NCBI RefSeq assembly: GCF_025979705.1
Contig: NZ_CP110136.1
Coordinates: 2,356,001 to 2,420,000 of the forward strand
Direction of reading: 5' to 3'
Source of the DNA: Hymenobacter sp. YIM 151858-1
GTDB lineage: Bacteria; Bacteroidota; Bacteroidia; Cytophagales; Hymenobacteraceae
DNA: 64,000 nt
In this document: piece after piece, positions 1 through 64,000 of the stretch
Position numbering within the stretch: the first letter of the stretch is position 1
Layout of the letters: the number at the start of each line of letters is the position of its first letter
Made by a program: the position numbers and the translations under genes
The notes under the pieces: model-generated
Database searches by the model: none
Told to the model about the DNA's origin: nothing
What the model saw: the letters and a program-made list of their open reading frames with translations, nothing else

Positions 1-1
1 C

Positions 2-3000
2 GATGCCAAACCCGCGCAGCTGCCGGCCGCTGCCCGCAGCACGGCTCAGGCCCTAGGTCGGTACCGGGTGGTAACGGTGCAAATGGCCAACGTGCGCGCT
101 GCGCTGGCCCCGGCGGCCGGCGGCAGCAACGCCCGCGGGGCCGCCCCGGTAGTATCGTTGCCGTTGCCCGATGGCAGCTCGGGCCGCTTTCGGGTAACCG
201 AAAACCAGGTGATGGCGCCCGCGCTGGCGGCTCGTTATCCCGCCATCAAAACCTACACCGCACAGGGCATCGACGACCCCACGGCCACGGCCTACCTCGA
301 TGTTTCGCAGGCCGGGCTGCACGCCATGATTTTGTCGGCGGGCAACACGGTGTACGTCGACCCGACCCCGGGCGGGCCCGAGCACCTGGTGTTTTACAAG
401 CGCGACATCACCGATGCGGCGCTGGCCCGGCGCGTGTGCCTAACCCAAACGCCCTCGGTGCTCAACCAGCGCCTGAGCCCGCTGCAAGGCGGCACGGCGG
501 CCCGCAGCAACGGCACCCAGCTGCGTACCTACCGCCTGGCCATGGCCTGCACGGGCGAGTACGCGGCCAAAAAAGGCGGCACCACCGAAGGCGCCCTGGC
601 CGGCATTGTGGCCTCGGTAAACCGCGTGAGCGGGGTGTACGAAAAGGAGCTGTCGATTCGGTTGCAGCTGATTGGCAACACCGATCAGCTTATCTTCCTC
701 GACCCTGCTACCGACCCCTACACCAACGAAAGCTCCGAGGCTACCCTCAACACTAATCAGCAGATTACCGACCAGCGCATCGGGCCGGCCAACTACGATA
801 TCGGCCACGTGTTCACGACCGATGGCGGCGGCCTGGCGGGCCTGGGGGTGGTGTGCGTGGGCAACAACAAGGCCCGGGCCACCACCGGCCTGCCCAACCC
901 CGTGGGCGACGCTTTCGATATTGATTTTGTGGCGCACGAAATGGGCCACCAGTTTGGCGCCAGCCACACCTTCAACAGCAACGAGGCGGGTAACTGCAAC
1001 CCGGGTACCCGCTCGGGCTCGGCCGCTTACGAGCCGGGTTCGGGCTCCACCATCATGTCGTACGCGGGCATTTGCTCGCCGCAAAACCTGCAGGCCAACT
1101 CCGATGCGTATTTCCATACCCGCAGCTACGACGAAATCCTGGACCACGTAACCAACCGGGGCGCCTGCGCGGCCACCGCCAACACCGGCAACCGCCCGCC
1201 GGTGGCGAATGCGGGGGCTGATTACACCATCCCGAAAGGCACGCCCTTCGAGCTGACGGGCACTGCCTCCGACGCCGACGGCGACGCCCTCACCTACTGC
1301 TGGGAGGAATTTGACCTAGGGCCGGCCGGCAACCCCAACCAGCCGCAGGGCGACGCGCCGATTTTCCGCTCGTTTCCGCCTACCGCCAACCCCACGCGCG
1401 TTTTCCCGCGCCTGGGTGCCTTGCTGGGCAACCTCAGCACCATTGGCGAGGTGCTGCCGCAGTACGGCCGTATGCTCAACTTCCGGCTTACCGTGCGCGA
1501 CAACCGCGCGGGCGGGGGCGGCGTGAACTACGACGCCGTGCGGGTGCCCGTGGCCGACAACGCCGGGCCGTTTATCGTTACGTCGCCCAACGCCAACGTT
1601 ACCTGGCGCACCACTGTGCCGCAGCAGGTAACCTGGGACGTGGCCAATACCACGGCGGCGCCCGTAAGCGCGGCGCGGGTCGATATTCTGCTTTCGGTTG
1701 ACGGCGGCCTGACCTACCCCTACACGCTGGCCGCCGGCACCTCCAACGACGGGGCCGAGCAGGTAACCGTACCGGCCGGCGTGCCCGCCTCGGGGCAGGT
1801 GCGCCTGAAGGTGAAAGGCACCGGCAACATCTTCTTCGACATATCCGACCAGAATTTTACGCTGCAAACGCCCACCGGGCCGGGGTTCTTCCTGAGCAGC
1901 GACTGCGCCAACAGCACGCAGGCGCTTTGCCCCGGCAACTCGGTTAGCTGCAGCCTGAGCGTGGGCCAGGTGCTGGGCTTTGCGGGGCAGGTAAGCTTGT
2001 CGGCTACGGGCGTGCCGGCGGGCGTGAACATCGGCTTTGGCAGCACGCAGGTAGCGGCGGGCAGCACCACCACGCTCACCATTGGCGCCACGGCGGCGGC
2101 CGCCTCGGGCACCTACCCCATTACGGTAGTGGGCACCAGCGGCGGCACCACCGAAAGCCAGATTATCAACCTGGTGATTCGCAACTCGGCCAACGTGCCC
2201 CCCACGCTGCAGCAGCCCGCGGCCAACGCGCTCCGCACGCTGCCGCAACCGGTGTTCCGGTGGTCGGCCCTACCGGGCGCCACCTCCTACGATTTGCAGG
2301 TGGCCACCGATGCCGGCTTCAACAACGTGGTAATCAGCCAAACGGGACTGCAAACCAACTCGTACGCATCCGCCAGCGCGCTGCAGGAAAACGGCCGCTA
2401 TTACTGGCGGGTGCGCGGCACGGCCGAGTGCGGCGTGGGCAATTGGTCGGCAGGCGAGCAGTTTTACGTGGGCCGGCTTAGCTGCGCCACCTACGCGCCC
2501 ACGGGCCTGCCCCTTGCCATTGCCAACACCACCAACGCCACGGCCATTTCTACCATCACGGTAAACAGCGCCGAAGCGGTATCGGCCGTGCGGGTACGCG
2601 ATGTGCGCATAACCCACCGCGACCTGGGCGAGCTGGTGCTGGAGCTGCGCGGACCCGATAACACCCGCGTGCGCCTGGCTTCCTCGCCGTGTCCGGGCTT
2701 CGCCAACATCAATGCCAGCTTCGACGACGCGGCTACTACGGGAATCGTCTGCCCCATCAATACCGGCGGCACCTACCAACCCGAAAGCCCCCTGGCGGCC
2801 TTCCGTGGCACGCCCGCCAACGGCCCCTGGACGCTGCACGTGCTCGACGTGGCCCCCGGCAATGCCGGCTCGCTCACCAACTGGGTGCTGGAGCTTTGCA
2901 CCGTGCAGGATGCCGTTACGAGCAACCGCGGCACCAGGCAGCTGCAAGGCGTATCGGTGTTCCCCAACCCGAGCACCGGCCGCTTCGAGCTGAACGTGGA

Positions 3001-3652: not shown

Positions 3653-5803
3653 CTACAACGCCACGCGCAATTGCGCTTTCACCTCGGAGCGTTGCGGGCC
3701 CTGAATTTCCTCCAGGCCCGAGCCCACGGTTTTTTGCCCGCGGTACGTGGTAGTGGCGTAGCGCACCCACATGGTAATGCGGCGGCCCAGCTTGTACTCG
3801 GCCAGGGCATACACGCGGGTGCCGCGGCCGGCCAGCGCCGGCACCGAAAAAGCGTACAGCACATCCTGTTCGTAGGCATACTGGCGGGTGTCGTAGTCGT
3901 CCGTATCGAAGAGGGCGTAACGCGCCGACAGGCGCAGGGCGCGCACAGGCTGCACGGTTACATCCTGCGCCAGCAGGTAGCCGGTGCGCCGCGGCCCTAG
4001 GAGCTGGCTGTAGTGGGTGCCCTGCAGGCGGGTGCGCAGGCTGAGGATGCTGCTCGGTCTGGTGTCGTAGAACAGCAGCAGGGAACGGCGCACGGTGGGC
4101 ACCGGCTCGGGCACGGGGCGCGGGCCGTCGGCGTCGTAGGCTTTTTGGCGGGTGCGCACCTGGGCGTAAAGCTGGCTCGTTTTGGTGGGCGCAAACGCCA
4201 CGCGCACCAGCCAATCGTAGCCGCGCGAGGGGGCGCTTACCTGGTAGCGCAACCACGGAAACCGAAACTGATCGTAGTAGGCCGCCAGCTCCCAGCGCGC
4301 CACCGGCCGCACTTTCAGGCCCAGGTACAAGCCGCTTTCGTTGATGGTGCGGGTGTTTTCGCCGAACGCATTGCCGTAGAGCGTATGAAAGTTGCGCGCG
4401 TAGTGCCGGTACAGCACGGCGGCATCTACATCCTGACCGAGGCTAGCCAGCAGGCCGTTTACGGTGCCCAGGCCGCCGCTGCTGCTGCGGGCCGTTTCGC
4501 CGAACAAGCTGAGGTTGCGCCAGCCGTAGCTGTAGTGCGCCGATACCGCCAGGTTTTGCTTCCCGCTGAACTCGAACAAATTGTACGGCTCGGGGCGGCG
4601 CTGCAAGGGCTGCCCGAAAGCGGTGCCTACGGCCGTCAGCCCCAGGCTCAGCTGGCGGCCTATGGGCGCAAAGCTCACGTTGCCGCCCACCATGCCCTCG
4701 CGCAAACTGCGGCGGTTGCGCAGCTCCGAGGCCGTGCGGTGGAAACCCGTCAGCAGCAAGCCCGAGGCAAAATCCGTGGCTTCTTCCTCCAACGAGTCGG
4801 CCACGGCGGTGCGCAGCGTCGCATCCACGCGCTTCAGCGAGGCAAAACCGGTGAGGCGCCAACCCGGTGTCGGCGCTACCGTGGCCGCTGCTCCGCGGAA
4901 AAACGCGCTTTCGAGCACCGAGGTGTAGGGACGGATGCCCAGGTTAGAGCGGCGCAGCGTGGTAATGGTTTCGGCCCCCTTGCCCACCTGCAACCCCGAC
5001 GACAGCAGCAGCCCTTGCCCGAACTGCAGCTGGTAGTCGCCTACAATCACGGCCTTCAGCCGGCCGCGCTCAAACAGCCCTAGGTGCGCCGAGTAATAAT
5101 CGAAGCCGTAGCGGCGGGTACCCGGGCTCCAGATGAGTTGCTCGCCGGCGTCTTTTTCGGCCGCCAGGCCAATGCTGAAATCGCGCGCGTGGCTGGTTCG
5201 GAAGCGTACCAACAGCTTATCGGGCGAGCCTAAATAGCGGCTGGCTGGGGTGCCGTTGCTGTTGAGGGTGGGCGCCGTGTAACCTTTGCGCTGCTGCAGC
5301 ACCCGCTCGTAGCGGATGAACAGCGCGTTGTTTTCTTCCTGCCGAATGCGCTGCCACAGCGGCCCGCGCACCGCGTTGCCGCTCGGCTCGCCCACCGTCA
5401 CGAAGGGCGCCAGCCGGTAAATGGTGCGCAAATCCAGCTCGTCGATGCTTTGCAGCTCATACAGGCTCAGCAGGGCTCCGTTTCGCTCGCGGTGCTCGAG
5501 CAGGGCCGTAACCTGCGCCGGCGAGAGCAGCAGCAGGCTCGTCAGCTCCTCGCGGGTGGCGGTGTTCAGGTTGAGCGGCGTTTGCAGGTATTGCAGCAGG
5601 GTTTCGTACAGGTCCTCGTAGGGCTGCTGGTCGCTTTGCGGCTCGGCAAACAGCTCCTGCAGCAGCCGGTCGAGGTCGGGGCGCGGGCGCGGGTAGTCCT
5701 GCACCTGGGCCTGCGCGCGCGGCGCACCTAGGGCGCACAGGGCCGCGAGCAGCAGCCCCGCTCCTGCCCGGCCGCGGCGCACTTGGTTACCTAGGCAGCT
5801 CAT
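3653..5803 (-). CDS. Helix-hairpin-helix protein with C-terminal outer-membrane-type region
   Basis: 716 residues. An N-terminal signal peptide (LLLAALCALGAPRAQAQ, to about residue 33) precedes a ComEA-like helix-hairpin-helix stretch at about 72-135 (LNLNTATREELTSLL, LLEHRERNGALLSLYELQSI). The remaining 570 residues alternate polar and aromatic residues in short strands with Tyr/Arg/Gly turns, like an outer-membrane barrel. HhH units bind DNA in ComEA, but here they may only be a periplasmic interaction domain. The ATG overlaps the stop of the upstream PorV-like gene (ATGA, 5800-5803), so the two are probably translationally coupled. The function is not known to me; DNA binding or uptake is only a guess. 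Confidence 0.8.
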   Translation of the reverse strand: MSCLGNQVRRGRAGAGLLLAALCALGAPRAQAQVQDYPRPRPDLDRLLQELFAEPQSDQQPYEDLYETLLQYLQTPLNLNTATREELTSLLLLSPAQVTALLEHRERNGALLSLYELQSIDELDLRTIYRLAPFVTVGEPSGNAVRGPLWQRIRQEENNALFIRYERVLQQRKGYTAPTLNSNGTPASRYLGSPDKLLVRFRTSHARDFSIGLAAEKDAGEQLIWSPGTRRYGFDYYSAHLGLFERGRLKAVIVGDYQLQFGQGLLLSSGLQVGKGAETITTLRRSNLGIRPYTSVLESAFFRGAAATVAPTPGWRLTGFASLKRVDATLRTAVADSLEEEATDFASGLLLTGFHRTASELRNRRSLREGMVGGNVSFAPIGRQLSLGLTAVGTAFGQPLQRRPEPYNLFEFSGKQNLAVSAHYSYGWRNLSLFGETARSSSGGLGTVNGLLASLGQDVDAAVLYRHYARNFHTLYGNAFGENTRTINESGLYLGLKVRPVARWELAAYYDQFRFPWLRYQVSAPSRGYDWLVRVAFAPTKTSQLYAQVRTRQKAYDADGPRPVPEPVPTVRRSLLLFYDTRPSSILSLRTRLQGTHYSQLLGPRRTGYLLAQDVTVQPVRALRLSARYALFDTDDYDTRQYAYEQDVLYAFSVPALAGRGTRVYALAEYKLGRRITMWVRYATTTYRGQKTVGSGLEEIQGPQRSEVKAQLRVAL

Positions 5804-6672
5804 GGCGCGGCTTCGGGTTTGGGTTCGAAGCGCAGGCTTACGCTCAGGTGCTGGCTCAGGCCCAGCGCGTTGTGCCAGGCCGCGGCGTAATCAAGCCGAG
5901 CGCGGCCAAAGCGCAGCCCCAGGCCGCCGGTCATCTGCCCGGTTAGCGTAGCCACGCCGGCGCGCAGCGCCAGCGCCTCGGCGGCCTGGTACTCGAGGCC
6001 GGCCTTGAAGTCGGCGGCCTGCTCTACGTCCTTTTCGGTTTCAATCAGCAGCAGCACTTTGGGCGCGGCGCGGTAGCTAAGGCCGGCCTTCAGCACGGTA
6101 GGCACGCGCTCGGTCTGATACTCGGCCAGCCGGGCCTGGTTGAGGTTGTAGAGGTAGGCCCCGAAAGTCAGCTTCTGCGGAATCACCTCGGCCTGCCCGC
6201 CCAGCGACAACGCCACCGCGCGGCGGCTGCCCAGCCCCTCGATGCGCACTTGCAGCACATCGGCCCGCGCGCCCACGCTGAAAAGCCCCAGGCGGTAACC
6301 GTAGCCCACGCCGGCCCGCTGCTCGTTGTAGAGCTTGCCGCCAAAACGCTGCAGTTCCACGCCCACCACGCCGTGCGGCGCTGCCGTACCAGCGCTACCC
6401 GCGGGCTGCCTACCTAGGGGCAATGCCGCGGCCAAAGCAGCCGTGCCAAACTCCGGAATCAGAAACCGATTATCGGCGTACACCGCGGCTTCGGGCCGCG
6501 TGAGGGCGCCCAGGCCCGCTACGTTGTTGCCCACAGCCCATACATCGGCCAGCGTAACGGCCGCGTTGCCCAACGCAGCTGCGCGCCCACCGCGAACACC
6601 GGGCCCGTTGCCCTGCGCCGCGCCGAAAAGCGGTAAAAAGACGAATAACAGCCCTAAGTATAGTTTTGGCAT
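5800..6672 (-). CDS. PorV/PorQ-like outer-membrane barrel protein
   Basis: 290 residues from the ATG at 6672; an in-frame ATG at 6684 is an alternative, and both give a signal peptide ending near LFGAAQ. After it come GVRGGRAAALGNAAVTLADVWAVGNNVAGL and repeated amphipathic strands ending in SLRFEP, typical of the PorV/PorQ (FadL-like) barrels of Bacteroidota. PorV proper is the T9SS shuttle protein; this shorter paralogue may be unrelated to secretion. It is the first gene of a two-gene unit with the HhH protein. The family call is moderate; the function is unknown. Confidence 0.7.
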   Translation of the reverse strand: MPKLYLGLLFVFLPLFGAAQGNGPGVRGGRAAALGNAAVTLADVWAVGNNVAGLGALTRPEAAVYADNRFLIPEFGTAALAAALPLGRQPAGSAGTAAPHGVVGVELQRFGGKLYNEQRAGVGYGYRLGLFSVGARADVLQVRIEGLGSRRAVALSLGGQAEVIPQKLTFGAYLYNLNQARLAEYQTERVPTVLKAGLSYRAAPKVLLLIETEKDVEQAADFKAGLEYQAAEALALRAGVATLTGQMTGGLGLRFGRARLDYAAAWHNALGLSQHLSVSLRFEPKPEAAP

Positions 6673-6723
6673 AAGCACGCACATTACGACGCTATAAAGT
6701 TCTGAAGAAGAACCGGCAACAAA

Positions 6724-6757
6724 AAAGCCCCGACGCCTTTACCGGCACCGGGGCTTT
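6724..6757. terminator. Terminator of the S46 peptidase gene
   Basis: Stem AAAGCCCCG (6724-6732) / CGGGGCTTT (6749-6757) with A and T runs on both sides. It sits 29 bases past the peptidase stop codon and could work in either direction. Confidence 0.8.
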
Positions 6758-6785
6758 CGCAATACGGCAAAAAACCACCTAGGGC

Positions 6786-9059
6786 TTACTGGCCAGCCGA
6801 AGCCGCCTCGCCCTTTTTCTTCTTCGTTTTCACCTTCACTTTGGTCGATTTGGCATCGGCGCCGGGGGTGTTGGCGGCCACGCTGGCGTTGGGGTTCGGG
6901 CCGTTGTTTACAATCGTCATTTCATCGACGATGTGCTTGGCGCCGCCCAGCTTCTCGATGCACCACAGCACGTAGCGAATGTCGGCGTTGATGCAGCGCT
7001 TCAGGTCGGGGTCGTAGGCCAAGTCGCCGGTCATGGCTTCCCAGTTGCCGTCGAAGGCCAGGCCAATCAGCTCGCCGCGGCCGTTGATAACCGGCGAGCC
7101 GGAGTTGCCGCCCGTAATGTCGTTGTCGGTGATGAACGCAACGGGCAGGGTGCCGTTTTTATCGGCGAAGCGGCCAAAATCCTTGGCCTGCAGCAGCTGG
7201 CTTTGCTTGGCCGGCACCACAAACTCGGGGTTGGTGTTGTCTTCCTTTTCCAGAATGCCCTGGCCGGTAGTGTAGTAGTTGTACTGCACGGCGTCGCGGC
7301 CTTTGTAGGCGCGCACGGTGCCGTAGCTCAGGCGCAAGGTAGAGTTGGCATCGGGCGAGTACACCTTGCTGGCGTTTTTCTCGCGCAGGGCGGCTACGTA
7401 CAGGCGGTTGGCGCGCACGAGGCTGGCTTGCAGGGCCTGCGTTTTGGGCAGGATGTTCTGCACGTAGTTCGAGTAGATCGACTGGAACGTTTTAAACGCC
7501 GGATCGGCCTCCAGCTTAGCCGCCGTGGGCGCCGCCAGGAAAGCTTCAACCTTGGCTTTCGAGGTCAGCAGCGAGTTGCCGAACACGTAGTCGGCGTACT
7601 TCGCCATCGAGCCGCCGTACTGCTTTTGCACCGTCTGGAACACGTCGGGCTGTTGCTCCTTGGGCACATCCTGCATGTACAGACCTAGGAGCGCGGCAAA
7701 CACCTTCTTGTCGGTGGCGGCGCTGTAGTCCTTGAAGTGCTCGGCTACGGGCTCTTTCAGGTCCTCAACGGCTTTCTGCACGGCCGCTTTGTCGGTGCCT
7801 TTCAGGGCCTGGTACAGCGGCATCATGCGCGAGGCCAGCGTGATGATTTCGGTGCCGAAAGCGCCTTCGTTCACGTACTGGGCGCTCAGGTTGTACTGGC
7901 GCAAGCCTTCGTAGGCCTGGTTGATGTCCTGGAGCACCGCGCCGTACTGCTGCTGGCGGGCGGGGTCGGCGGCAATCCATTGGGCCAGGGAGGCCTCTTC
8001 GCCTTTCTTCTGGTCCACGGTTTTCAGGCGTTTCATGCCCTCGTTTTGGCCGATGAAGTACTTCCAGTAGTTGGCAATGTTGGCGTACTTCGAGGCGTAG
8101 GCCAGGCGCAGGGCCGGGTCGCGGTCCATGTCTTCCTTCCAAAGCTTCAGGCGGGTGTCGCGCAGTTTAATGCGGGCGGGGTTGCTTTGGTCGAGCGTCA
8201 GCTGCAGGCCAGCGGCGGGCAAAAAGCGCTGCGTACGGCCGGGGAAGCCAAACACCATCGAAAAGTCGCCCTCGCTTACGCCCTGCAGGCTCACGGGCAG
8301 GTGCTTTTTGGGGATGTAGGGCACGTTGTCGGCTGCGAAGCCGGCAGTGGGCTTGTTGTCCTTGGAAGCGTACACCCGGAACAGCGAGAAGTCGCCGGTG
8401 TGGCGGGGCCACATCCAGTTGTCGGTGTCGCCGCCGAACTTACCTACGGCTTCGGGCGGAGCACCTACCAGGCGCACGTCGCCGAAGCGCTGGTACACAA
8501 ACAGGTAGTACTCGTTGCCGGCAAACATGTCGCGCACGTAGGCCACGTACTGGCCGTTTTCCTTGGCGGCGTTGGCCAGCTCGCGCTGGCGCTGCTGCAC
8601 CGTGGCCATGCGCTCGGCCTCGGGCGTTTGGGGCGTAATGCCCTCCAGCACCTTGCCGGTTACGTCCTCCATGCGCACCAGAATATCCACGAACAAGCCG
8701 GGGTTGGCTTTCTCGTCGGCGCGGGTCTGGGCGTAGAAGCCGTTTTGCAGGATGTTGTTCTGCGTGGTGCTGTGGCTCTGGATGGCGTCGTAACCGCAGT
8801 GGTGGTTGGTGAGCAACAGGCCTTCCTTCGACACGAACTCGCCGGTGCAGAAACCGCCCAGCTGCACGATGGCATCCTTGAGCGAGGCGTTGTTCACGTC
8901 GTAAATTTCTTCGGGCGTAAGCTTGAGGCCCTTCTTCTGCATGTCGGCGTGGTTGAGGCGCTTAACCAGCAGCGGTAGCCACATGCCTTCGTCGGCGCGG
9001 GCTACGGCGGGCAGCAACAGTGCCAGCAGCAGGCCTTTCAGCCAGGAGCGTTTGAGCAT
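6786..9059 (-). CDS. S46 family dipeptidyl-peptidase, DPP7-type
   Basis: 757 residues from the ATG at 9059, chosen because a signal peptide (LLLALLLPAVARA) follows at once and a -7 box lies upstream; the frame upstream is non-coding in character. S46 enzymes cut dipeptides from peptide N-termini in the periplasm with a chymotrypsin-like triad. The His region TNHHCGYDAI is at about 84-93 and the nucleophile is in GGNSGSPV (Ser 653). Eighteen residues on, AFDGNWEAM places Gly where family DPP7 has Gly673 and DPP11 has Arg673, so a preference for hydrophobic P1 over acidic residues is inferred. The C-terminal 35 residues are a Lys-rich, Ala-rich tail not needed for the fold. Confidence 0.95.
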   Translation of the reverse strand: MLKRSWLKGLLLALLLPAVARADEGMWLPLLVKRLNHADMQKKGLKLTPEEIYDVNNASLKDAIVQLGGFCTGEFVSKEGLLLTNHHCGYDAIQSHSTTQNNILQNGFYAQTRADEKANPGLFVDILVRMEDVTGKVLEGITPQTPEAERMATVQQRQRELANAAKENGQYVAYVRDMFAGNEYYLFVYQRFGDVRLVGAPPEAVGKFGGDTDNWMWPRHTGDFSLFRVYASKDNKPTAGFAADNVPYIPKKHLPVSLQGVSEGDFSMVFGFPGRTQRFLPAAGLQLTLDQSNPARIKLRDTRLKLWKEDMDRDPALRLAYASKYANIANYWKYFIGQNEGMKRLKTVDQKKGEEASLAQWIAADPARQQQYGAVLQDINQAYEGLRQYNLSAQYVNEGAFGTEIITLASRMMPLYQALKGTDKAAVQKAVEDLKEPVAEHFKDYSAATDKKVFAALLGLYMQDVPKEQQPDVFQTVQKQYGGSMAKYADYVFGNSLLTSKAKVEAFLAAPTAAKLEADPAFKTFQSIYSNYVQNILPKTQALQASLVRANRLYVAALREKNASKVYSPDANSTLRLSYGTVRAYKGRDAVQYNYYTTGQGILEKEDNTNPEFVVPAKQSQLLQAKDFGRFADKNGTLPVAFITDNDITGGNSGSPVINGRGELIGLAFDGNWEAMTGDLAYDPDLKRCINADIRYVLWCIEKLGGAKHIVDEMTIVNNGPNPNASVAANTPGADAKSTKVKVKTKKKKGEAASAGQ

Positions 9060-9421: not shown

Positions 9422-9534
9422 TTGGCTGGCACCTAGGGTTGGATGCCAAAGCTGCTTCTCGGCCCTAGGTGGTGCGTTTGCGTATAGCAGCTAGGTACGC
9501 CCGCAGGCCGGGCGTTTTACTGGCACTATCCGCA

Positions 9535-15325: not shown

Positions 15326-16078
15326 CTACACACCTAGGGCATCCAACGCCCGCTCGGCGGCTTGCTGCTCGGCCTGCTTCTTGGAGAGGCCCATGCCCGT
15401 AGCAACGGCTTCTTCGTCAATCAGTACCGTGGCCGAAAACTCCATTACGCCGCCGGTGCGTTGCTCGCCGTTCAGCTCGTAGCGCACGGCTTTGCCGTGG
15501 CGCTGCGCCCACTCAATCAGCTTGCTTTTGAAGTTGGCCGTGGTGCTCACCAGGGCTTTCACATCCACAAACGGCCGAATCAGGCGCTTCAGCACGAACT
15601 GCCGGGCGGCTTCGTAGCCGTGGTCGAGGTAAATGGCGCCTACCAAAGCCTCCAGCGCGTTGCCGTTCACGGAGCGCGAGCGGGCCGAGCGGCTCTGGCC
15701 GGCATCGAGCTGCACCAGCGCGTCGAGGCCAATTTTGAGGGCCAGCTGATTCATGCTCTCGCGATTTACAATGCGCGAGCGAACCTCCGTGAGGAACCCT
15801 TCGGGTTCGTACGGAAATTTGCGGAACAGAAACTCGGCCACCACCGCGCCCAGCACGGCATCGCCCAGAAACTCCAGCCGCTCGTTGGAAAGGTGCCGCG
15901 TTTGGCCCGGCTGCTGCCGAACCATTGAGGCGTGCGTAAATGCCAGCCGGTACAAACGCACGTTGCCCGGCGCACGGCCCGTTACGGCAGCAATTGCTTG
16001 CCGGAACTGACGGTCGTGGCCGAGCAAACGGCGAAAGAAACCGAACAGCGGGAGCGTACGGCCGCTGCGCTGTACCAT
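15326..16078 (-). CDS. rnc: Ribonuclease III
   Basis: 250 residues. Cuts double-stranded RNA in rRNA and mRNA maturation. The RNase III signature NERLEFLGDAVL is at residues 65-76 and the second acidic site at NALEALVGAIYLDHG; a double-stranded-RNA-binding domain fills about 175-248 (ATGMGLSKKQAEQQAAERAL). The first 25 residues are basic and specific to this lineage. It is downstream of fabF and acpP in the same direction, as usual in Bacteroidota. Confidence 0.96.
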   Translation of the reverse strand: MVQRSGRTLPLFGFFRRLLGHDRQFRQAIAAVTGRAPGNVRLYRLAFTHASMVRQQPGQTRHLSNERLEFLGDAVLGAVVAEFLFRKFPYEPEGFLTEVRSRIVNRESMNQLALKIGLDALVQLDAGQSRSARSRSVNGNALEALVGAIYLDHGYEAARQFVLKRLIRPFVDVKALVSTTANFKSKLIEWAQRHGKAVRYELNGEQRTGGVMEFSATVLIDEEAVATGMGLSKKQAEQQAAERALDALGV

Positions 16079-16082
16079 AAGC

Positions 16083-16177
16083 AGTATTGGGTATAAGGTA
16101 CTAGGTAACGGGACTGTTTGTGCGGGTACGCAGCTATGTGTTGCCCAGATACCTACTACCCACTACCCTTTACCTTC
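16083..16177. repeat. Imperfect inverted repeat between fabF and rnc
   Basis: The left part (TATTGGGTATAAGGTACTAGG from 16086, written without its last base in the arm) and the right part (CCCAGATACCTACTACCC, about 16145-16162) are built of GGGTA/GGTA words and their complements, giving a loose hairpin. Its position within an apparent operon resembles the elements at 28113, 29280 and 35434. Confidence 0.5.
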
Positions 16178-17431
16178 TTAGTCGCGGAGCTTACCGAACA
16201 CCACCGAGGTGTTGTGCCCACCAAAGCCAAACGTATTGCTCAGGGCAATGTTCACCTCGCGCTGCTGGGCTTGGTTGAAGGTGAAGTTCAGGCGCGGATC
16301 AAGCTCCGGGTCGTCGGTAAAATGGTTGATGGTAGGCGGAATCAGGCTATGCTCCATGGCCAGGATGCTGGCCACGGCCTCGATAGCACCGGCTCCGCCG
16401 AGCAGGTGGCCCGTCATGCTCTTCGTCGAAGAGATGTTCAGGTCGTAGATGGCGTCGCCAAATACTTTCTGAATGGCCTTCACCTCGGCGCCGTCGCCCA
16501 GGGGCGTGCTGGTGCCGTGGGTGTTGATGTAGTCCACCTCGGAGGCGGTAATGCCGGCGTCGCGCAGGGCTTGCTTGAGCACCAGCATCACACCGTTGCC
16601 CTCGGGGTCGGGCGCGGTGAGGTGATACGCATCGGCCGACATGCCGCCGCCGAGCACCTCGGCGTAGATTTTAGCACCGCGCGCTTTGGCGTGCTCCAGA
16701 TCCTCCAGAATCAGCGCGCCGGCGCCTTCGCCCAGCACAAAACCGTCGCGGTCCTTGTCGTAGGGGCGCGAGGCCGTTTCGGCGGCATCGTTGCGCTCCG
16801 ACAAAGCCTTGAGGGCGTTGAAACCGCCGATGCCGGCTTCCGTCACGGCCGCCTCCGAGCCACCGGTTACAATTACATCAGCATAACCCAGCCGGATGTA
16901 GTTGTAGGCGTCGATGATAGAGTTCGACGACGAGGCGCAGGCCGACACCGTAACGAAGTTGGGGCCGCGGAAGCCGTGCTTCATCGAAATATGACCCGAC
17001 GCGATATCGGCAATCATTTTGGGAATGAAGAACGGGTTGAAGCGCGGGGTACCGTCGCCTTTGGCAAAGGCCACGCACTCCTCCTGGAAGGTGCGCAGGC
17101 CGCCAATGCCCGAGCCCCAGATAACGCCCACGCGGTCTTTGTCGACGCTGCCGTCGGCAATACCGGCTTCGGCAATGGCCTGATCGGCGGCTACCACGGC
17201 GAACTGCGAAAACAAATCGAGCTTGCGGCCTTCCTTGCGTTCGAAGAAATCGTCGGCGTTGTAGCCCTTCACTTCGCAGGCAAAGCGGGTTTTGAACTTG
17301 CTGGCGTCGAAGCGCGTGATGGGGCCGGCCCCACTAACGCCGCGCGACAAACCGTCCCAGTACGCGGCAACCGTGTTGCCAAGGGGGGTAATGGCTCCGA
17401 GACCAGTAACAACAACTCTCCGTAGCGCCAT
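16178..17431 (-). CDS. fabF: Beta-ketoacyl-ACP synthase II
   Basis: 417 residues. Condenses malonyl-ACP with acyl-ACP in fatty acid elongation, including the cis-unsaturated branch. The Cys-His-His triad is visible: Cys165 in TVSACASSSN, His in INTHGTSTPLGD and His in KSMTGHLLGGAGA, with the closing NTFGFGGHN loop. It lies 94 bases downstream of acpP on the same strand; a GC-rich hairpin (GGCCGG/CCGGCC, 17471-17490) in the gap could adjust the acpP:fabF ratio. Confidence 0.97.
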   Translation of the reverse strand: MALRRVVVTGLGAITPLGNTVAAYWDGLSRGVSGAGPITRFDASKFKTRFACEVKGYNADDFFERKEGRKLDLFSQFAVVAADQAIAEAGIADGSVDKDRVGVIWGSGIGGLRTFQEECVAFAKGDGTPRFNPFFIPKMIADIASGHISMKHGFRGPNFVTVSACASSSNSIIDAYNYIRLGYADVIVTGGSEAAVTEAGIGGFNALKALSERNDAAETASRPYDKDRDGFVLGEGAGALILEDLEHAKARGAKIYAEVLGGGMSADAYHLTAPDPEGNGVMLVLKQALRDAGITASEVDYINTHGTSTPLGDGAEVKAIQKVFGDAIYDLNISSTKSMTGHLLGGAGAIEAVASILAMEHSLIPPTINHFTDDPELDPRLNFTFNQAQQREVNIALSNTFGFGGHNTSVVFGKLRD

Positions 17432-17525
17432 AAAAGGGGTGCGAAGGGATAAAGGAGGAAAAGAAAAACGGCCGGCGCGGGCCGGCCGGCAAAGCGGTAG
17501 GTGCTTTAGCTAGGGTAAAGATGCC

Positions 17526-17762
17526 TTATTTGGCGTGTTCTTCGAGGTAAGCAATGGCTTGGCCCACGGTGCCGATGTTCTCAGCCTGATCGTCGGGGAT
17601 GCTTACGTTGAATTCTTTTTCGAATTCCATGATAAGCTCAACCGTGTCCAGCGAGTCAGCGCCGAGGTCGTTGGTGAAGCTTGCTTCCGGAGTTACTTCC
17701 GAGGGCTCAACGCCAAGCTTGTCAACGATAATGCTTTTTACTTTTTCTGCGATTTCAGACAT
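17526..17762 (-). CDS. acpP: Acyl carrier protein
   Basis: 78 residues, acidic. Carries growing acyl chains on phosphopantetheine attached to Ser37 in the motif [11 protein letters not shown]. Full length, first gene of the acpP-fabF-rnc unit. A near-consensus -7 box (GTTATTTG, one mismatch) lies about 30 bases upstream of the ATG. Confidence 0.98.
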
Positions 17763-17876
17763 TTCCGTGGGGTTTAAAGAAAACTCGGCACAAATAACAC
17801 CATCTTCGGCAACATTGTCAAACCGGACGAGGTGAATTGCCCAAGTGCCCGCGCTGGTTTAGCCCCGCCAACTCCG

Positions 17877-17884
17877 TAGTTTTG
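17877..17884 (+). promoter_or_regulatory. -7 promoter box of the IPExxxVDY gene
   Basis: TAGTTTTG matches TAnnTTTG, 28 bases upstream of the ATG at 17913. Confidence 0.55.
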
Positions 17885-17912
17885 CGCCGCATGCCAGGCT
17901 GCTTTTCCGCCT

Positions 17913-18341
17913 ATGAAAACCCTTACCCTCGACTGCGACTACGACTGCGACTTCGACCTGTTCGGCATCGTGTCGTCGAGCCGGGACCATAAGCTGGCCT
18001 GGACGCTGAACCAGGCCCTGCGCCTGCGGCTGATCAAGCAGCAAGATCTGATACTGGACCTGCTGACCCGCGGCCGGCTCGTTATCAGCAATTACCTGCA
18101 CGCTACTGAAACAGCCACCTTACGCCTGCTCCGCAACCGGTCCGTCGATCCGTCGCCGCTGCAGAGGCACTTTTTGGCTCCCGATATCAAGGAGTACGAC
18201 TACCTGATACAGGTGCAAAACGGTACCGGCACGCTCGACCCCGATACCCTGCTCGAGCAGCTGGCGGCCTTGCCGGCGGTGCAGTACGTGTGTCGTTTCG
18301 ATCCAAATACCCTCAAGTTCAAAGAAAACTTGCTCTTTTAG
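17913..18341 (+). CDS. IPExxxVDY family protein
   Basis: 142 residues. A Bacteroidota-specific family of unknown function, recognised by place and pattern: it sits between divergent acpP and codirectional pyk, as in many relatives. The naming motif is degenerate here (LAPDIKEYDYLIQV instead of IPExxxVDY). The N-terminus DYDCDFDLFGIVSS and the middle RLRLIKQQDLILD also fit. No signal peptide or membrane segment. Its linkage to pyruvate kinase and fatty-acid genes hints at metabolism, which is inference only. Confidence 0.85.
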   Translation: MKTLTLDCDYDCDFDLFGIVSSSRDHKLAWTLNQALRLRLIKQQDLILDLLTRGRLVISNYLHATETATLRLLRNRSVDPSPLQRHFLAPDIKEYDYLIQVQNGTGTLDPDTLLEQLAALPAVQYVCRFDPNTLKFKENLLF

Positions 18342-18393
18342 GGTTTGGTTGGCTCGCTGCCGCCGCGCCCTCCCCTTGCTGCCCCACTCAGCC

Positions 18394-18502
18394 AAGGACC
18401 TTTCTCTCGCCGTAGCCGGCCACCCTGGCTAGCTACCTACTGCGCGTTTTTTGCGTAACCACCTAGGGTTACGGCGCTGCCCGCCGAGAGAGGAAGGTCC
18501 TT
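18394..18502. repeat. Long hairpin-forming inverted repeat between the IPExxxVDY gene and pyk
   Basis: AAGGACCTTTCTCTCGCCG (18394-18412) pairs with GCCGAGAGAGGAAGGTCCTT near 18483-18502. The loop holds a smaller palindrome around AACCACCTAGGGTT (CCTAGG centre). The arms share the GAAGGACCTT word of the composite repeats at 3370 and 24673. It may act as a terminator or separator ahead of the pyk promoter. Confidence 0.7.
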
Positions 18503-21883: not shown

Positions 21884-22654
21884 TTAGTCAACTTTCTTCT
21901 CGATGTCGTCGGCCATCTTCTTGTGCGAGTTCAGCATGGGCAGCGTTTTGGTGGCCAGTGCTTTCACCGATGGCGTAGACGCTTGCTTGGTTTTGGCTTC
22001 AAACATGGCAATATCCATCTTGTGAGCCGTTTCCATGGCGTCCATGTAAGCCTCGTCGAACGCTTTGCCGGTTTTGCCCTTCACGTTGTCGGCCAGGGCC
22101 TGGTGCACGGGCATCAGGGTAGTAGGCAGCGTCACGTTCAGCGGGGCAGCTACCGTCTTCAGCTCCTGCGTGGCCTTGGTGTGGTGGTCTTTCATCATCT
22201 GACCGTACTTTTTCACGTCGGCATCGGTCGATTGCTGCGTGGCCATTTGGCCCAGCTGAATTTCGAGCATGTTGCTGCTGGCGGCCGTCATCAGGAAGGT
22301 GGGGTCGTCCATGGTGGCGAAGGTGGCCACAAAGGCGTTCATGTCGGTGCCGGGGGTGCCCACGGTGGCCGAGCTGGCGGTGCTGCCGCTCACGTTCATA
22401 GAGCCCGAGCTAACACCGGTGCTCGATACGCTGCTGCTGGTGCCCACCGAAGAGGTATTCATGGTGCCGGAGCCCGAGGTACCGGGGCTGGTGGCCGCAC
22501 CCGAGGTCATGCCGCTGCTGGCATCGTCGGTAACGGTGCTGCCCGAGGTGCTCGAGCCGGTAGTGCCCGAGGCGGTGGTAGAGCTGCTGCATGCGCTGCC
22601 CGCCATCATGGCTGCCGCTATCAGAAGAAGGGAAGTTGCTTTCATTGTTTTCAT
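21884..22654 (-). CDS. DUF4142 lipoprotein with Ser/Thr/Gly linker
   Basis: 256 residues from the ATG at 22654 (MKTMKATSLLLIAAA); the ATG nine bases on is an alternative. Signal peptide with lipobox AGSAC, then about 70 residues of almost pure Ser/Thr/Gly, then a helical ferritin-like DUF4142 domain (MLEIQLGQMATQQSTDADV, KYGQMMKDHHTKATQEL, DEAYMDAMETAHKMDIAMFE). The linker probably holds the helical domain off the membrane. Function unknown; some DUF4142 proteins are stress-related, which is not shown here. Transcribed convergently with the MFS gene. Confidence 0.88.
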   Translation of the reverse strand: MKTMKATSLLLIAAAMMAGSACSSSTTASGTTGSSTSGSTVTDDASSGMTSGAATSPGTSGSGTMNTSSVGTSSSVSSTGVSSGSMNVSGSTASSATVGTPGTDMNAFVATFATMDDPTFLMTAASSNMLEIQLGQMATQQSTDADVKKYGQMMKDHHTKATQELKTVAAPLNVTLPTTLMPVHQALADNVKGKTGKAFDEAYMDAMETAHKMDIAMFEAKTKQASTPSVKALATKTLPMLNSHKKMADDIEKKVD

Positions 22655-22937
22655 AGTTAGTGTTGCGATTTTCAGTGGCTTATACGTCCGCGAGCCTTGG
22701 CTGTTCATATTTTTATACCAATTCCTCGCGCTTCTATCCAAATATGTAAATAGTTATCGGCTAATCCATTATCTTATTAATCTCGGCAGCTTCTCAGCAC
22801 CTAGGGCTTTGCCGGGCCGCCACGCATCGTTCGCAACACCTGGCTCAGGGCCGGGCACTCGCCTGCAACTGGTATGCATGCCTAAAACTTGCGTACCTTC
22901 AACAACCCCTCCCCTTCACCCTCAACGTACCCCTGCG

Positions 22938-23921
22938 ATGCCGATCATAGCCAACTCCCGCTACCGGCCGCCTTTTTACCTCTTCAACGGCCACCTGCAA
23001 ACCATTGTACCCAGCCTGCTGCGCGAGGTACCCGAGGTGCAGTACCAACGCCAGCGCGTAGAAACGGCCGACGGCGACTTTCTGGACCTCGATTGGGCCC
23101 GCACCGAGCACGTTACCGATGCGTTGGGCATTATCTCGCACGGACTGGAGGGCGACGCCGGCCGCCCCTACGTGCGCGGCATGGCCCGGGCGCTCAACAA
23201 AGCCGGCATCGATGCGCTGGCCTGGAACTACCGCAGCTGCAGCGGCGAGCCGAACCGCCTGTTGCGCGCCTACCACCTAGGCGACACCGACGACCTGCAT
23301 TTTGTGGTGCAGCAGGCGCTGGCCACGGGCCGGTACCGGCAAGTGTACATGACGGGGTTTTCGGCCGGCGGCAACATGACGCTGAAATATCTGGGCGAAG
23401 ACCCGGGCCGGATTCCGCAGGAAATACAGCGCGCGGCGGTGTTCTCGGTGCCTACCGATCTGAAAGCCGGCTCGGAGCATATTTCGCGGCTCCAAAACCG
23501 CATCTACCTCAACCGCTTTCTGAAGTCGCTGCGGCAGAAAATCCGGACCAAAGCTGAGTTGTTGCCCGGCCAGCTCGACCTGGATGGCCTCGAAGAGCTC
23601 AGCGACTTTCCGCAGTTCGACAACCGCTTTACGGCGCCCATGCACGGCTTCAAATCGGCCGACGAGTACTACGAGCACAGCAGCTCGGGCCGTTACCTGC
23701 ACGGCATTCGCATTCCCACGTTGATTGTGAATGCCCAGAACGACCCGTTTTTGCCGCCCACGTGCTTTCCGCGCGCGGCGGCCGAAAGCAGCCCCTACGT
23801 GTTTCTGGAAACGCCCGAAGCCGGCGGCCACGTAGGCTTTGCCGAGGGCCTGCCCTCCGACGGCGACTACTACTCCGAGCGGCGGGCCGTAGAATTTATC
23901 ACGGCAAAAGTTCCCGCCTAA
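22938..23921 (+). CDS. YheT-family alpha/beta hydrolase
   Basis: 327 residues from the ATG at 22938 (MPIIANSRYRPP). The open frame extends 223 codons upstream, antisense over the DUF4142 gene, and that part is rejected. Typical YheT start FYLFNGHLQTIVPSL, the oxyanion region ISHGLEGDAGRPYVRGMA, nucleophile Ser in MTGFSAGGNMTLKYLGE, acid in NAQNDPFLP and His in EAGGHVGFAEG. Esterase-like; physiological substrate unknown. A strong convergent terminator follows. Confidence 0.93.
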   Translation: MPIIANSRYRPPFYLFNGHLQTIVPSLLREVPEVQYQRQRVETADGDFLDLDWARTEHVTDALGIISHGLEGDAGRPYVRGMARALNKAGIDALAWNYRSCSGEPNRLLRAYHLGDTDDLHFVVQQALATGRYRQVYMTGFSAGGNMTLKYLGEDPGRIPQEIQRAAVFSVPTDLKAGSEHISRLQNRIYLNRFLKSLRQKIRTKAELLPGQLDLDGLEELSDFPQFDNRFTAPMHGFKSADEYYEHSSSGRYLHGIRIPTLIVNAQNDPFLPPTCFPRAAAESSPYVFLETPEAGGHVGFAEGLPSDGDYYSERRAVEFITAKVPA

Positions 23922-24924: not shown

Positions 24925-24959
24925 ACCGAAGCCCCGCCTAGGTAAGACGGGGCTTCGGT
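24925..24959. terminator. Terminator of the sigma factor gene, loop holding CCTAGG
   Basis: Stem ACCGAAGCCCCG (24925-24936) / CGGGGCTTCGGT (24948-24959). The loop begins with CCTAGG. It is 22 bases past the sigma factor stop. Confidence 0.85.
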
Positions 24960-40133: not shown

Positions 40134-40136
40134 GCT

Positions 40137-40907: not shown

Positions 40908-40968
40908 AAAGAGTAAAGCTAAATGACGACCAGCCGCAAACCAGGGCACGGGGCGGTGGCCCGTAAAA

Positions 40969-41005: not shown

Positions 41006-41029
41006 GGGGCCGGCGCGGGCAACGCGCCG

Positions 41030-43090
41030 CTACGCCACAAACGAGCCGGGCCGCACCGGCTGCCCAGGCTGCATCAGGCGCAACGAACCGTCTACATCTT
41101 CGGCCATTAGCAGCATGCCCTGGCTTTCGATGCCTTTGATTTCGCGCGGCGCCAGGTTCAGCAGCACCAGCACTTGTTGGCCAATGAGGTTGGCGGGCTC
41201 GAAGTGTTCGGCAATGCCGCTTACAATGGTGCGCTGATCGAGGCCGGTATCCACGGTGAGCTTCAGCAGCTTTTTGGTTTTGGCTACTTTTTCGGCCGTG
41301 AGGATGGTGCCCACGCGCAGATCCATGCGGCCGAACTCGTCGAACGACACATTATCCTTGGCGGGCGTAACGGGCGTGTTGGCCAGCTGATTGGCTACTT
41401 TGGTATCGAGTAGCTTCTGCACCTGCGCTTCCACGGTTTTGTCTTCGATTTTGTCGAAGAGCAGCACGGCCTCGCCTAGGTGATGGCCGGCGGGCAGCAG
41501 GTCGGCAGCGCCGGCCTGGGCCCAGGCCTGGCGCTCGATGCGCAGCATGCTGCCTAGGTTCGCGGCCGCGGTGGGTAAGAAGGGCTCCATGAGAGTAACC
41601 AGGCTGGCGGCCAGTTGCAGGGCCACGTGCAGCACGGTGCCGGTGCGCTCCTGATCGGTTTTTACCAACTTCCAGGGCTCGGTGTCGGCCAGGTACTTGT
41701 TGCCGAGGCGCGTAAGGTTCATCAGCTCGGCTAAAGCGTCGCGGAAGCGGTACTGCTCAATCAAATCACCGATGCGCTTCGGGAACTCGGCCAGTTGGGC
41801 AAACACCTCGCGGTCGGCATCGGTGAGCGGGCCTTTTGCGGGCACATCGCCGCCGAAGAACTTGTGCGTGAGCACCACGGCGCGGTTCACGAAGTTGCCT
41901 AGGTTGGCTACCAGCTCGTTGTTGTTGCGGGCCTGAAAGTCCTTCCAGGTGAAGTCGTTGTCCTTGGTTTCGGGGGCGTTGGCGGCCAGCACGTAGCGCA
42001 GCACATCGGCCTTGCCGGGGAAATCCTGCAGGTACTCGTGCAGCCACACGGCCCAGTTGCGCGAGGTCGAAATCTTGTCGCCTTCGAGGTTCAGGAATTC
42101 GTTGGCGGGCACGTTGTCGGGCAGGATAAAGTCGCCGTGGGCCTTAAGCATCGCCGGAAAGATGATGCAGTGGAACACGATGTTGTCCTTGCCGATAAAG
42201 TGCACCAGCTTGGTGCCGGGGTCTTGCCAGTAGGGTTTCCAGGCGTCGCCGGGCAGCAAATCCTTGGTGGCCGAAATGTAGCCGATGGGCGCATCAAACC
42301 ACACGTAGAGCACCTTGCCATCGGCGCCCTCTACGGGCACGGGCACGCCCCAATCCAGGTCGCGGGTTACGGCGCGGGGCTGCAGGCCCTGGTCGATCCA
42401 GGACTTGCACTGGCCGTACACGTTGGTTTTCCAGTCCGATTTGTGGCCTTCGATAATCCACTCGCGCAGCCACTGCTCGTACTGGTCGAGGGGCAGGTAC
42501 CAGTGCTTGGTTTCGCGCAGCACGGGCTGGTTGCCCGAGAGCATCGAGCGGGGGTTGATGAGCTCGGTGGGGCTGAGCGACGAGCCGCACCGCTCGCACT
42601 GGTCGCCGTAGGCGTTTTCGTTGGCGCAGGTGGGGCACGTACCCACGATGTAGCGGTCGGCGAGAAATTGCTGGGCCTGCTCGTCGTAGTACTGCTGCGA
42701 CACCTGCTCCGTGAACTGGCCGGCCTCGTACATCTTCCGGAAGAAATCGGAAGCGGTTTGGCGGTGCGTGTCGTTGGAGGTGCGGGCGTAGATATCGAAT
42801 GAAATACCAAAATCTCGGAACGAGTCGCGGATGATGGCGTGGTACTTATCGACTACCTGCTGCGGCGTTACGCCTTCTTTCTGGGCCCGGATGGTGATGG
42901 GCACGCCGTGCTCGTCGGAGCCGCACACGAACTTAACGTCGCGGCCTTGGGCGCGCAGGTAGCGGGCGTAGATATCGGCCGGAATGTACACGCCGGCCAG
43001 GTGACCAATGTGTACGGGGCCGTTGGCATAAGGCAACGCTGCCGTGATGGTGTAGCGCTGGGGTTGGGAGGTCGTGCTCGGAGGGGTCAT
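41030..43090 (-). CDS. metG: Methionyl-tRNA synthetase with C-terminal tRNA-binding domain
   Basis: 686 residues from the ATG at 43090 ([11 protein letters not shown]); a start at 43114 is possible. Class I synthetase: HIGH motif in [11 protein letters not shown], a zinc knuckle [18 protein letters not shown], the KMSKS loop as KISTS. An EMAP-II/Arc1p-like tRNA-binding domain ([37 protein letters not shown]) fills the last 110 residues and serves dimerisation. Single gene with its own terminator. Confidence 0.97.
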
Positions 43091-43321
43091 GCAGCTATCA
43101 GAGGCAGCCGGCACCTAGGGCCGGCCGATAGGGCTTCGTACGAATGAAACGCGCAAAGAAACGGGTAAATGCGCAGTCTTCACCTCGTCGTTTTGCGTAT
43201 TAAGCACACCCCTACCACGCCGGACCAATTTTTCAGCCGTATGAGCAAAGACAATCTGCGTCCGATTCACTTCCTTGGCGAAGTAGTTCGCTTGCTTCTC
43301 CACACCACAACCTCTACTCCT

Positions 43322-62860: not shown

Positions 62861-62881
62861 GGGAAAGCGAACTGCTGGCTG

Positions 62882-64000
62882 CTAGTACCGACCCAGCACG
62901 TTGTCGAGGTATTTCTGGCCCGAGCCGGTGTTCAGCAGCAGCACTTGCTCGCCGGCGCGCAGCCAGCCGCTGGTCAGCAGCTTACGGGTGGCCAGCCACA
63001 CGGCGGCACCTTCGGGCGCTACAAACAGGCCTTCGGCGCGGCCCAGCTCGCGCATGCCTTCCAACATTTCGTCGTCGCTGATGCTCAGGGCCGTGCCGTT
63101 CGATTCTTTCAGGACTTGCAGCATGAGGGCTTCGCCCAGGGGGCGCGGCACGGCCAGGCCATTGGCAATGGTGGCGCGCCCTAGGTACTGCTGGCAGTTG
63201 GGCTGATTGCCGGCAAGGGTTTCGATGAGCGGGCAGCAATTGGTGGCTTGCACGGCCACCATGCGCGGCAGCTTGGCATCGGGCGCCAGCCAGCCCAGGG
63301 CTTTCATCTCCCCAAAAGCCTTCCAGATACCGATGAGCCCGGTGCCGCCGCCGGCGGGGTACACTATCACGTCGGGCAGTTGCCATTGCAGCTGCTCGGC
63401 AATTTCGTAGCCCATGGTTTTTTTGCCCTCGAGGCGGTACGGCTCTTTCAGCGTCGATACATCGAGCAAGTGCCCATCGGCGTTGATGTGGCGCACCTGC
63501 GCGGCGCAATCGTTGATGAGGCCATCCACCAGCCGCACCTCGGCGCCGTACCAGTAGCACTCCTCCCGAAACGCCTGGGGCGTGTGGCGCGGCATTACCA
63601 CCGTGGCGGGCAGGCCGGCCTTGGCGCAGTACGCGGCCATGGCTACACCGGCGTTGCCGGCCGTCGGGATGATGCAGCCTTCGGCCCCTAGCTCCTTGGC
63701 TTTGGAAATGGCCATGCTCAGGCCGCGGGCCTTAAACGAGCCGGTGGGGTTTTGGCCCTCATCCTTGAGCAGCAACGAAGCCAGGCCGTAGCGCGCCCCT
63801 AGGTTGCGGAGCGTGAGCAGCGGCGTAAAACCCTCGCCCAGGCTCACCATGTGGGCATCGTCGAGCAGCGGTAGCACCTCGCGGTAGCGCCACATGGTGG
63901 CCGGGCGGGCAGCCAAGGCTTCTTTGCTCAGCGAACCTTTCTCGAGCGTGTAGCGGGCCAGCAGCGGCGCAGCGCAGCACTCAGCCACGGTTTGGGGGGA
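62882..64000 (-). CDS. thrC: Threonine synthase (5' end outside window)
   Basis: The frame is open to the right edge, with a visible part of 372 residues. PLP fold II: SLGEGFTPLL, PLP-Lys in NPTGSFKARGLSMAI, PTAGNAGVAMAAY, the phosphate loop PAGGGTGLIG and C-terminal LLNTGSGQKYLD. The extreme right of the visible frame (AECCAAPLLARY) looks like the zinc-ribbon-like start of this subfamily. Last step of threonine synthesis. A GTG at 63988 is a possible but less likely start. Confidence 0.92.
   Translation of the reverse strand, partial: SPQTVAECCAAPLLARYTLEKGSLSKEALAARPATMWRYREVLPLLDDAHMVSLGEGFTPLLTLRNLGARYGLASLLLKDEGQNPTGSFKARGLSMAISKAKELGAEGCIIPTAGNAGVAMAAYCAKAGLPATVVMPRHTPQAFREECYWYGAEVRLVDGLINDCAAQVRHINADGHLLDVSTLKEPYRLEGKKTMGYEIAEQLQWQLPDVIVYPAGGGTGLIGIWKAFGEMKALGWLAPDAKLPRMVAVQATNCCPLIETLAGNQPNCQQYLGRATIANGLAVPRPLGEALMLQVLKESNGTALSISDDEMLEGMRELGRAEGLFVAPEGAAVWLATRKLLTSGWLRAGEQVLLLNTGSGQKYLDNVLGRY

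Follow-up and report, generated by a model that had tools for sequence, protein, structure and literature searches.

Why does one hexamer, CCTAGG, recur so often in a 64,000-bp stretch of the genome of Hymenobacter sp. YIM 151858-1? The stretch (C1:2356001-2420000; here referred to as the window, i.e., the whole stretch of DNA that was analysed) had been singled out in a preliminary description, which reported CCTAGG as far over-represented and likened it to the highly iterated palindrome HIP1 of cyanobacteria. In this study, the source genome (G000 in the comparisons below) was found to be filled with a DNA-level motif, GCTGCC-N22-ACCTAGGV, in which the octamer is strict and the upstream box is weak. 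The motif, its orientation, its dialects among relatives, and its maintenance are established by the observations that follow, and the explanations that may account for them are weighed thereafter.

Excess of CCTAGG in the window and the genome

The window, at 62% GC, contains 87 CCTAGG, i.e., one per 736 bp, where the preliminary description had estimated 85-90, or one per 700-750 bases; the eleven positions that it quoted all lie within 14 bp of a true site, and its two long site-free gaps are found at 15333-18462 and 26927-30439. Base composition predicts 21.3 sites (about 22 in the earlier estimate), and first- and second-order Markov models predict 12.9 and 12.1. A maximal-order model predicts 67, a figure that is high because CCTAG (93) and CTAGG (94) are almost confined to CCTAGG. 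Shuffling of synonymous codons in the 55 called genes gave 5.3 ± 2.3 sites (maximum 12 in 300 shuffles) against 56 observed. When all 64 palindromic hexamers were compared, CCTAGG reached 7.2 times its second-order expectation; CTGCAG came next among those with at least 20 copies (60 against 35, 1.7 times), and the seven others above twofold did so on just 2-13 copies each. The excess that was claimed thus stands against Markov models, codon shuffling, and other hexamers alike. CTAG occurs 130 times, 87 within CCTAGG and 43 outside.

The 87 cores start at the following positions of the window (83 lie within ACCTAGGV on either strand):
52, 1315, 3109, 3996, 5079, 5727, 5790, 6413, 6778, 7684, 9432, 9464, 9990, 10480, 11678, 11823, 12870, 13148, 13565, 14468, 14738, 15142, 15206, 15333, 18462, 18512, 18917, 19325, 20129, 21646, 22800, 23276, 24465, 24808, 24937, 25057, 26352, 26927, 30439, 30743, 31061, 31471, 32304, 32628, 32883, 33189, 34067, 34523, 34694, 35479, 36803, 39488, 39995, 40057, 40741, 40984, 41475, 41553, 41898, 43114, 43871, 44040, 44976, 45485, 46566, 49073, 49138, 49861, 50118, 50852, 51395, 51502, 51940, 52685, 54537, 56456, 56885, 57035, 57605, 57901, 59009, 60242, 61443, 62174, 62692, 63180, 63798

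The whole genome (4.62 Mb, three contigs) carries 5,325 CCTAGG and 75 of the reversed control GGATCC, which is a poor control, being scarce by itself in many relatives. TCTAGA and GGATCC have no copy in the whole window. GGATCC is nearly absent (0-9 copies) in about 30 genomes of group g5 and counts 100-300 copies in many others; its avoidance in the former looks like a restriction footprint.

An oriented octamer and a distant box

The palindromic core lies in a non-palindromic octamer: the 83 ACCTAGGV sites in the window, on one strand or the other, comprise 49 ACCTAGGG, 28 ACCTAGGC, and 6 ACCTAGGA. In 20 further stretches (400 kb) 449 of 483 sites have this form, 233 on the plus and 216 on the minus strand. 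The two flanks are interdependent in the source genome, T on both sides being found at 6 sites against 110 expected. The octamer is also strict, with 338 ACCTAGGG observed against 7.8 expected, while octamers with a single mismatch at positions 1-7 merely reach 0-2.2 times expectation. Examples from the window are:
51..58, minus strand: octamer, SCCTAGGT as read on the plus strand
1314..1321, plus strand: octamer ACCTAGGS
9431..9470, no strand assigned: inverted pair, two sites 32 bp apart in opposite orientations

Window and stretches together (464 kb) contain 27 such close pairs (<60 bp), of which 18 are inverted, 4 direct, and 5 have an unoriented member.

A second element precedes the octamer. 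CTGCC is found at -27 of 32 of 528 oriented sites (1.1 expected), and a mixture model places an upstream box, GCTGCC, at -28 to -23, i.e., 22 bases before the octamer and on its A side only. Trained on 421 sites from 19 stretches, the model scored 1.98 on 332 held-out sites outside those stretches and 0.25 on 236 near-octamer controls (p ~1e-16). Scores at ten other offsets ranged from -0.04 to 0.48, and the opposite side gave 0.13. The exact CTGCC stands at -27 in 17 of the 332 held-out sites.

Copy number and dialects among relatives

The enrichment is confined to a few relatives, as a comparison of the kind that the preliminary description had proposed makes plain. Among 204 genomes of the family, nine contain 5,325-8,806 CCTAGG, four contain 1,209-2,331 (G080, G082, G164, and G172), and 191 contain 54-888. 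The high-copy nine are G000, G005, and G007 in group g1, and G070, G076, G109, G125, G140, and G158 in group g5. AtpD relatives in named genomes are headed by Pontibacter, Hymenobacter, and other Cytophagales, and Hymenobacter accounts for 12 of the 16 plasmid records that match a stretch of contig C2; the family is thus most likely Hymenobacteraceae, and the large genus g5 probably Hymenobacter. G005 and G007 have 5,678 and 6,212 sites, the five remaining g1 genomes 123-249, and 22 other genomes of the order 5-807; Hymenobacter polaris shows 38 in 21.5 kb. Orthologous 64-kb stretches in five relatives were compared by synteny around one anchor gene:
41030..43114, minus strand: metG

These stretches hold 87, 97, and 105 sites in the high trio (window, G005, and G007) against 2, 1, and 1 in G001, G003, and G006. 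Genomes with MetG 85-98% identical differ 21- to 51-fold in copy number with synteny kept. Two other words also differ between the same stretches, i.e., GTCAC is fourfold rarer (51 against 204, both strands) and CTCGAG fivefold commoner (108 against 20) in the high trio.

High-copy genomes have the CCTAGG core in common and differ in their preferred outer bases, i.e., they use dialects (samples of 21.5-60 kb per genome, and 240-260 kb for G109 and G158). G070 and G158 prefer a T-type, ACCTAGGT; G109 and H. polaris prefer a G-type, CCCTAGGG/C; G076, G125, and G140 are mixed. The flanks in the other high genomes are near-independent and thus palindrome-like, with mild dependence in G125. The four middle-copy genomes use a C-type, GCCTAGGC (17-21 sites per genome), a sequence that PMC1939737 names as an avoided palindrome, with effect unknown, in another genome. 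By eye, the C-type continues towards a palindrome-like sequence of 18 bp, GAGTGGCCTAGGCCACTC, in which frequently a single half is well matched (loci L204, L227, and L228 in G082; L229 and L230 in G172; L206, L231, and L232 in G164).

The upstream box is present by consensus in G005 (p=0.002). In G007 it is not significant by consensus (p=0.13, 64 kb) and has a model mean of 1.41 (124 kb), and G125 gives a hint of it (p=0.025, 38 sites). No box was found at 101 sites of G158, nor in G140, G076, G070, G109, and H. polaris (3-25 oriented sites each).

Origin and maintenance of the sites

Aligned window sites are kept in 55 of 74 cases in G005 and 52 of 73 in G007, and in none of 51, 46, and 43 cases in G006, G001, and G003, respectively. 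Gaps at these places number only 1 (G005), 2 (G007), 6 (G006), 3 (G001), and 4 (G003). Judged from these alignments, the sites differ from their relatives by substitution. An origin from transposons or repetitive extragenic palindromes (REP/REPIN repeats) was rejected on the few gaps at orthologous sites; such repeats are likewise numerous and short, but the sites described here form Leu-Gly codons in genes and differ between relatives by substitution, rarely by gaps.

Within the high trio, 80 sites are present in all three genomes, 59 in two, and 81 in one. A low-copy relative could be aligned at 109 of these union sites, and at 108 of them every aligned low-copy genome lacks the motif. The commonest low-copy states at union sites are CCCAGG (51 of 235) and CCGAGG (37). 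Among the high genomes, the frequency of CCCAGG/CCTAGG differences varies with the octamer flank: they make up 58 of 237 comparisons if one half-site has T, 18 of 324 if neither has, and 0 of 18 if both have; these comparisons are pooled and ordered, so that sites recur and the direction is unpolarised.

To assess conservation between G000 and G005, 264 kb were compared, of which 223 kb aligned at 88.9% identity. Of 289 aligned CCTAGG sites, 217 are conserved, against a control-hexamer median of 54.5%, which ranks CCTAGG sixth of 370; since some control hexamers are better kept, the codon test weighs more. Among Leu codons, CTA is conserved in 79.3% of cases within sites (n=188), in 30.8% before other GG (n=13), and in 24.5% elsewhere (n=196), and conservation of CTG is lower in the C_GG context (41.8%, n=122) than elsewhere (70.5%, n=3,874). 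In the site context 55% of CTN codons are CTA, and outside it 3.7%. The sites are evidently held far above neutral turnover. Box strength is weakly linked to site conservation (p=0.04, or p=0.09 when a threshold is applied). Near-miss octamers at places where G005 has a site show better boxes when they read ACCCAGGV (p=0.05), but not when they read ACCTGGGV (p=0.77).

Placement in genes, gaps, and along the chromosome

The 464 kb contain about 570 sites, of which 328 lie in genes (called with the authors' own simple model) and 216 wholly outside, the remainder touching a gene edge; the density is 0.90/kb in genes and 2.13/kb outside. As had been noted earlier, sites occur both in gaps and in genes, often as Leu-Gly: 298 of the 328 genic sites read xxC-CTA-GGx (x-Leu-Gly), 30 read CCT-AGG, and none falls in the stop frame. 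How often an X-Leu-Gly tripeptide is encoded with CCTAGG (264 kb) varies with X, from 85 of 130 for Asp/Asn/His/Tyr and 102 of 266 for Ala/Pro/Ser/Thr/Arg/Gly to 19 of 180 for Val/Ile/Leu/Phe/Cys and 0 of 111 for others. Genic sites are oriented in sense in 144 cases and in antisense in 165, with 19 unoriented; an RNA-level function was rejected on this lack of sense bias, and the motif therefore acts at the DNA level.

Between genes, the density per kb is 2.93 in convergent, 3.05 in tandem, and 2.04 in divergent gaps, and 58 of 72 sites in tandem gaps lie in the 60% closest to the upstream gene, a skew to its 3' side. One site takes part in a hairpin:
24925..24959, minus strand: terminator-like hairpin, ACCTAGGC spanning loop and stem (site 24937)

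A consensus scan of 22000-41500 found no excess of such hairpins (20 against 20.6 in shuffles). Spacing is near-random to slightly even (coefficient of variation 0.99). No consistent strand bias was seen along the chromosome in the 20 stretches (at most 9 to 19 within one stretch, and no lengthy series of stretches leaning the same way; origin unlocated), and a replication polarity of the sites was rejected on the even plus and minus counts.

Three regions are site-poor and are perhaps younger DNA (loci L182, L195, and L256): contig C2, with 2 sites per 20 kb, and two stretches of the chromosome, at about 1.15 and 4.01 Mb, with 9 and 10 per 20 kb.

Searches for a reading machine

The preliminary description had suggested a lone methyltransferase that recognises CCTAGG. 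Profile searches were made in 30 genomes chosen by the authors (9 high, 4 middle, and 17 low), and none of PF00145, PF01555, PF02086, PF07669, and PF02384 tracks copy number, enzymes outside these families lying beyond the search. None of the five is present in all nine high-copy genomes: PF00145 is matched in two, PF01555 in four, and PF02086 in none. G007 has a single PF01555 match and lacks PF07669 and PF02384, while G005 has one PF02384 match and one PF07669 match below cut-off, so that these two have none of the five in common. A methyltransferase of these families was thus rejected as the driver.

The ATPases of type IV pili and type II secretion (PF00437) were found in none of the 30 genomes and in 14 of 14 control genomes; the classical machine of DNA uptake sequences therefore seems absent, and uptake by type IV pili was discarded as a candidate.

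A search modelled on Riemerella found DUF5689 in 78 of the 204 family genomes. Strong matches (E<1e-15, open frames of 278-491 aa) occur in five of the six high-copy g5 genomes (all except G109), and likewise in middle-copy G080 and 11 low-copy g5 genomes. At the one locus annotated in g5 (L330), the gene lies beside those for SusD and a metallophosphoesterase; the g1 gene, which G000 also carries although the family search missed it, adjoins murB and mutS2. These neighbours do not form the Riemerella pair, so DUF5689 was rejected as a transformation gene, and its association is read as shared ancestry. A weak DUF5689 and fibronectin-type protein is 77-85% identical within the high trio, its neighbours being 91-97% identical:
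L352:6034-7023: weak DUF5689/fibronectin-type protein
L353:6256-7290: the same protein
L354, about 1899-2900: the same protein

The LexA-type palindromes of Bacteroidetes given in PMC8565304 are different sequences. No report of a CCTAGG motif in Hymenobacter was found among literature sampled, by title or opening abstract, from large result sets.

Weighing the explanations

We infer that a sequence-reading protein or complex drives the motif. As a tentative explanation, possible though short of probable, CCTAGG would be a self-recognition motif accumulated by drive, like DNA uptake sequences but with another reading machine. Motif-bearing DNA would be preferentially taken up or spared, then recombined, and alleles with the motif would thereby spread (molecular drive). 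Since the search turned up no ATPase of type IV pili or type II secretion, the machine would differ from that of Neisseria or Haemophilus; it might be, e.g., a transformation route as in the Bacteroidota genus Riemerella. A transposon screen in Riemerella anatipestifer described transformation (envelope) genes without counterparts in known machinery (PMC8459023), and Riemerella columbina is described as favouring its own DNA (PMC7965970).

The motif resembles the uptake sequences of Neisseriaceae and uptake signal sequences of Pasteurellaceae: both strands carry copies, in the thousands overall, the sites originate by substitution and are conserved, DNA between genes is enriched in them, inverted pairs occur, and the dialects have a common core. 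In Haemophilus, AT-tracts stand on one side of the core, and the weaker distant box described here recalls them. Uptake sequences are described as evolving by point mutation and as less frequent in coding DNA and in DNA of recent acquisition (PMC7811141), as conserved and frequently forming inverted-repeat terminators (PMC2397512), and as occurring in dialects of 943-5,918 copies (PMC3630211). They differ in that the host here is a member of the Bacteroidota without a PF00437 ATPase found and that most dialects are palindrome-like. By analogy, the pattern would work most like uptake sequences; it is nevertheless not classed as one, because the pilus feature is lacking and an uptake preference is a prediction.

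Several findings weigh against a drive by uptake. Besides the missing PF00437 and the search for DUF5689, which yielded no uptake gene, most dialects outside the genus group of the source genome look palindromic, unlike known uptake sequences. Divergence in Neisseria is reportedly higher near uptake sequences; the flanks of conserved sites here, compared with random coding places, are not significantly more divergent (p=0.18), and the Neisseria-type effect was discarded. The part of G000 without an alignment in G005 has no fewer sites per kb than the rest (1.76 against 1.29/kb; 1.70/kb in three blocks of at least 2 kb), which sets it against the scarcity in contig C2 and two of the 20 stretches that would fit rarity in newly acquired DNA. 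Finally, the box score is raised at orthologous places in low-copy relatives (0.99-1.59 against 0.30; 41-62 sites each), so the box is not a product of drive, and the cores seem to have arisen next to pre-existing boxes.

Two rivals to a driven self-recognition motif are unlikely. The sites may bind a chromosome-organising or repair protein under ordinary selection, the dialects tracking its specificity, mostly as a homodimer and here asymmetrically. The strict octamer, the palindrome-like flanks of most high-copy genomes with the extended C-type, the second box about two helical turns away in g1, and the near-random to slightly even spacing all suit such a protein; the sporadic occurrence of the motif within one family and the count of only 2 sites in 20 kb of contig C2 do not, and no nucleoid protein is known to have strict 8-bp sites in the thousands. 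With similarly low probability, a biased mutation or mismatch repair process would turn CC(C/T)(A/G)GG into CCTAGG in the right context, without function. Differences among high genomes are indeed mostly the one transition between CCCAGG and CCTAGG, and Elhai proposed such a ratchet for HIP1 (PMC4390886), but the enzyme would have to read flanks and a box 22 bp off, and the published model requires methylation, for which no common methyltransferase was found among the five families searched.

Rather less likely is a Chi-like self label that would stop or tame a helicase-nuclease, with unlabelled DNA degraded. A dense, oriented, strict octamer and the few sites in the 20-kb sample of contig C2 agree with this, as Chi is itself an oriented strict octamer. 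However, the motif here shows no consistent strand bias, palindromic dialects would read both ways, and Chi sites are clade-wide, not sporadic; those of E. coli are also far sparser.

Least likely is a motif of the HIP1 type that a cognate orphan methyltransferase would generate or maintain: HIP1 and alternate HIPs accompany such enzymes in cyanobacteria (PMC4390886) and the restriction enzymes AvrII, BlnI, and XmaJI are known to recognise CCTAGG (PMC1939737), but the window octamer is non-palindromic and no methyltransferase family searched is common to the high-copy genomes. The likeness to HIP1 drawn in the preliminary description therefore holds in part. Gross genome-wide over-representation at about one site per kb, a strict core with variable outer bases, sporadic replacement among relatives, and occurrence in genes and gaps are all found here as in HIPs; two defining features are not, i.e., a palindromic motif (the core is palindromic, the octamer is oriented and bipartite) and, in the five families searched, a lone cognate methyltransferase; the phylum is also different. 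The role of HIP1 itself is, to our knowledge, still unsettled.

Significance

Since syntenic genomes with MetG 85-98% identical differ 21- to 51-fold in copy number, the cause is mappable by gene content and the forces are measurable site by site, and the dialects might supply a series of motifs, each with its matching reader. PMC7811141 describes strong uptake labels for two families, Pasteurellaceae and Neisseriaceae. If the tentative explanation is true, which we consider possible rather than probable, the Hymenobacteraceae would label their own DNA in a language of self-recognition whose core is CCTAGG and whose dialects vary by species. Its reader would be a machine for DNA uptake or for telling self from non-self, with no relation to type IV pili. 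Uptake-type genome labels would then have originated independently once more, beyond the two proteobacterial families known for them, and the Hymenobacteraceae would apparently have acquired or lost such labels on more than one occasion.

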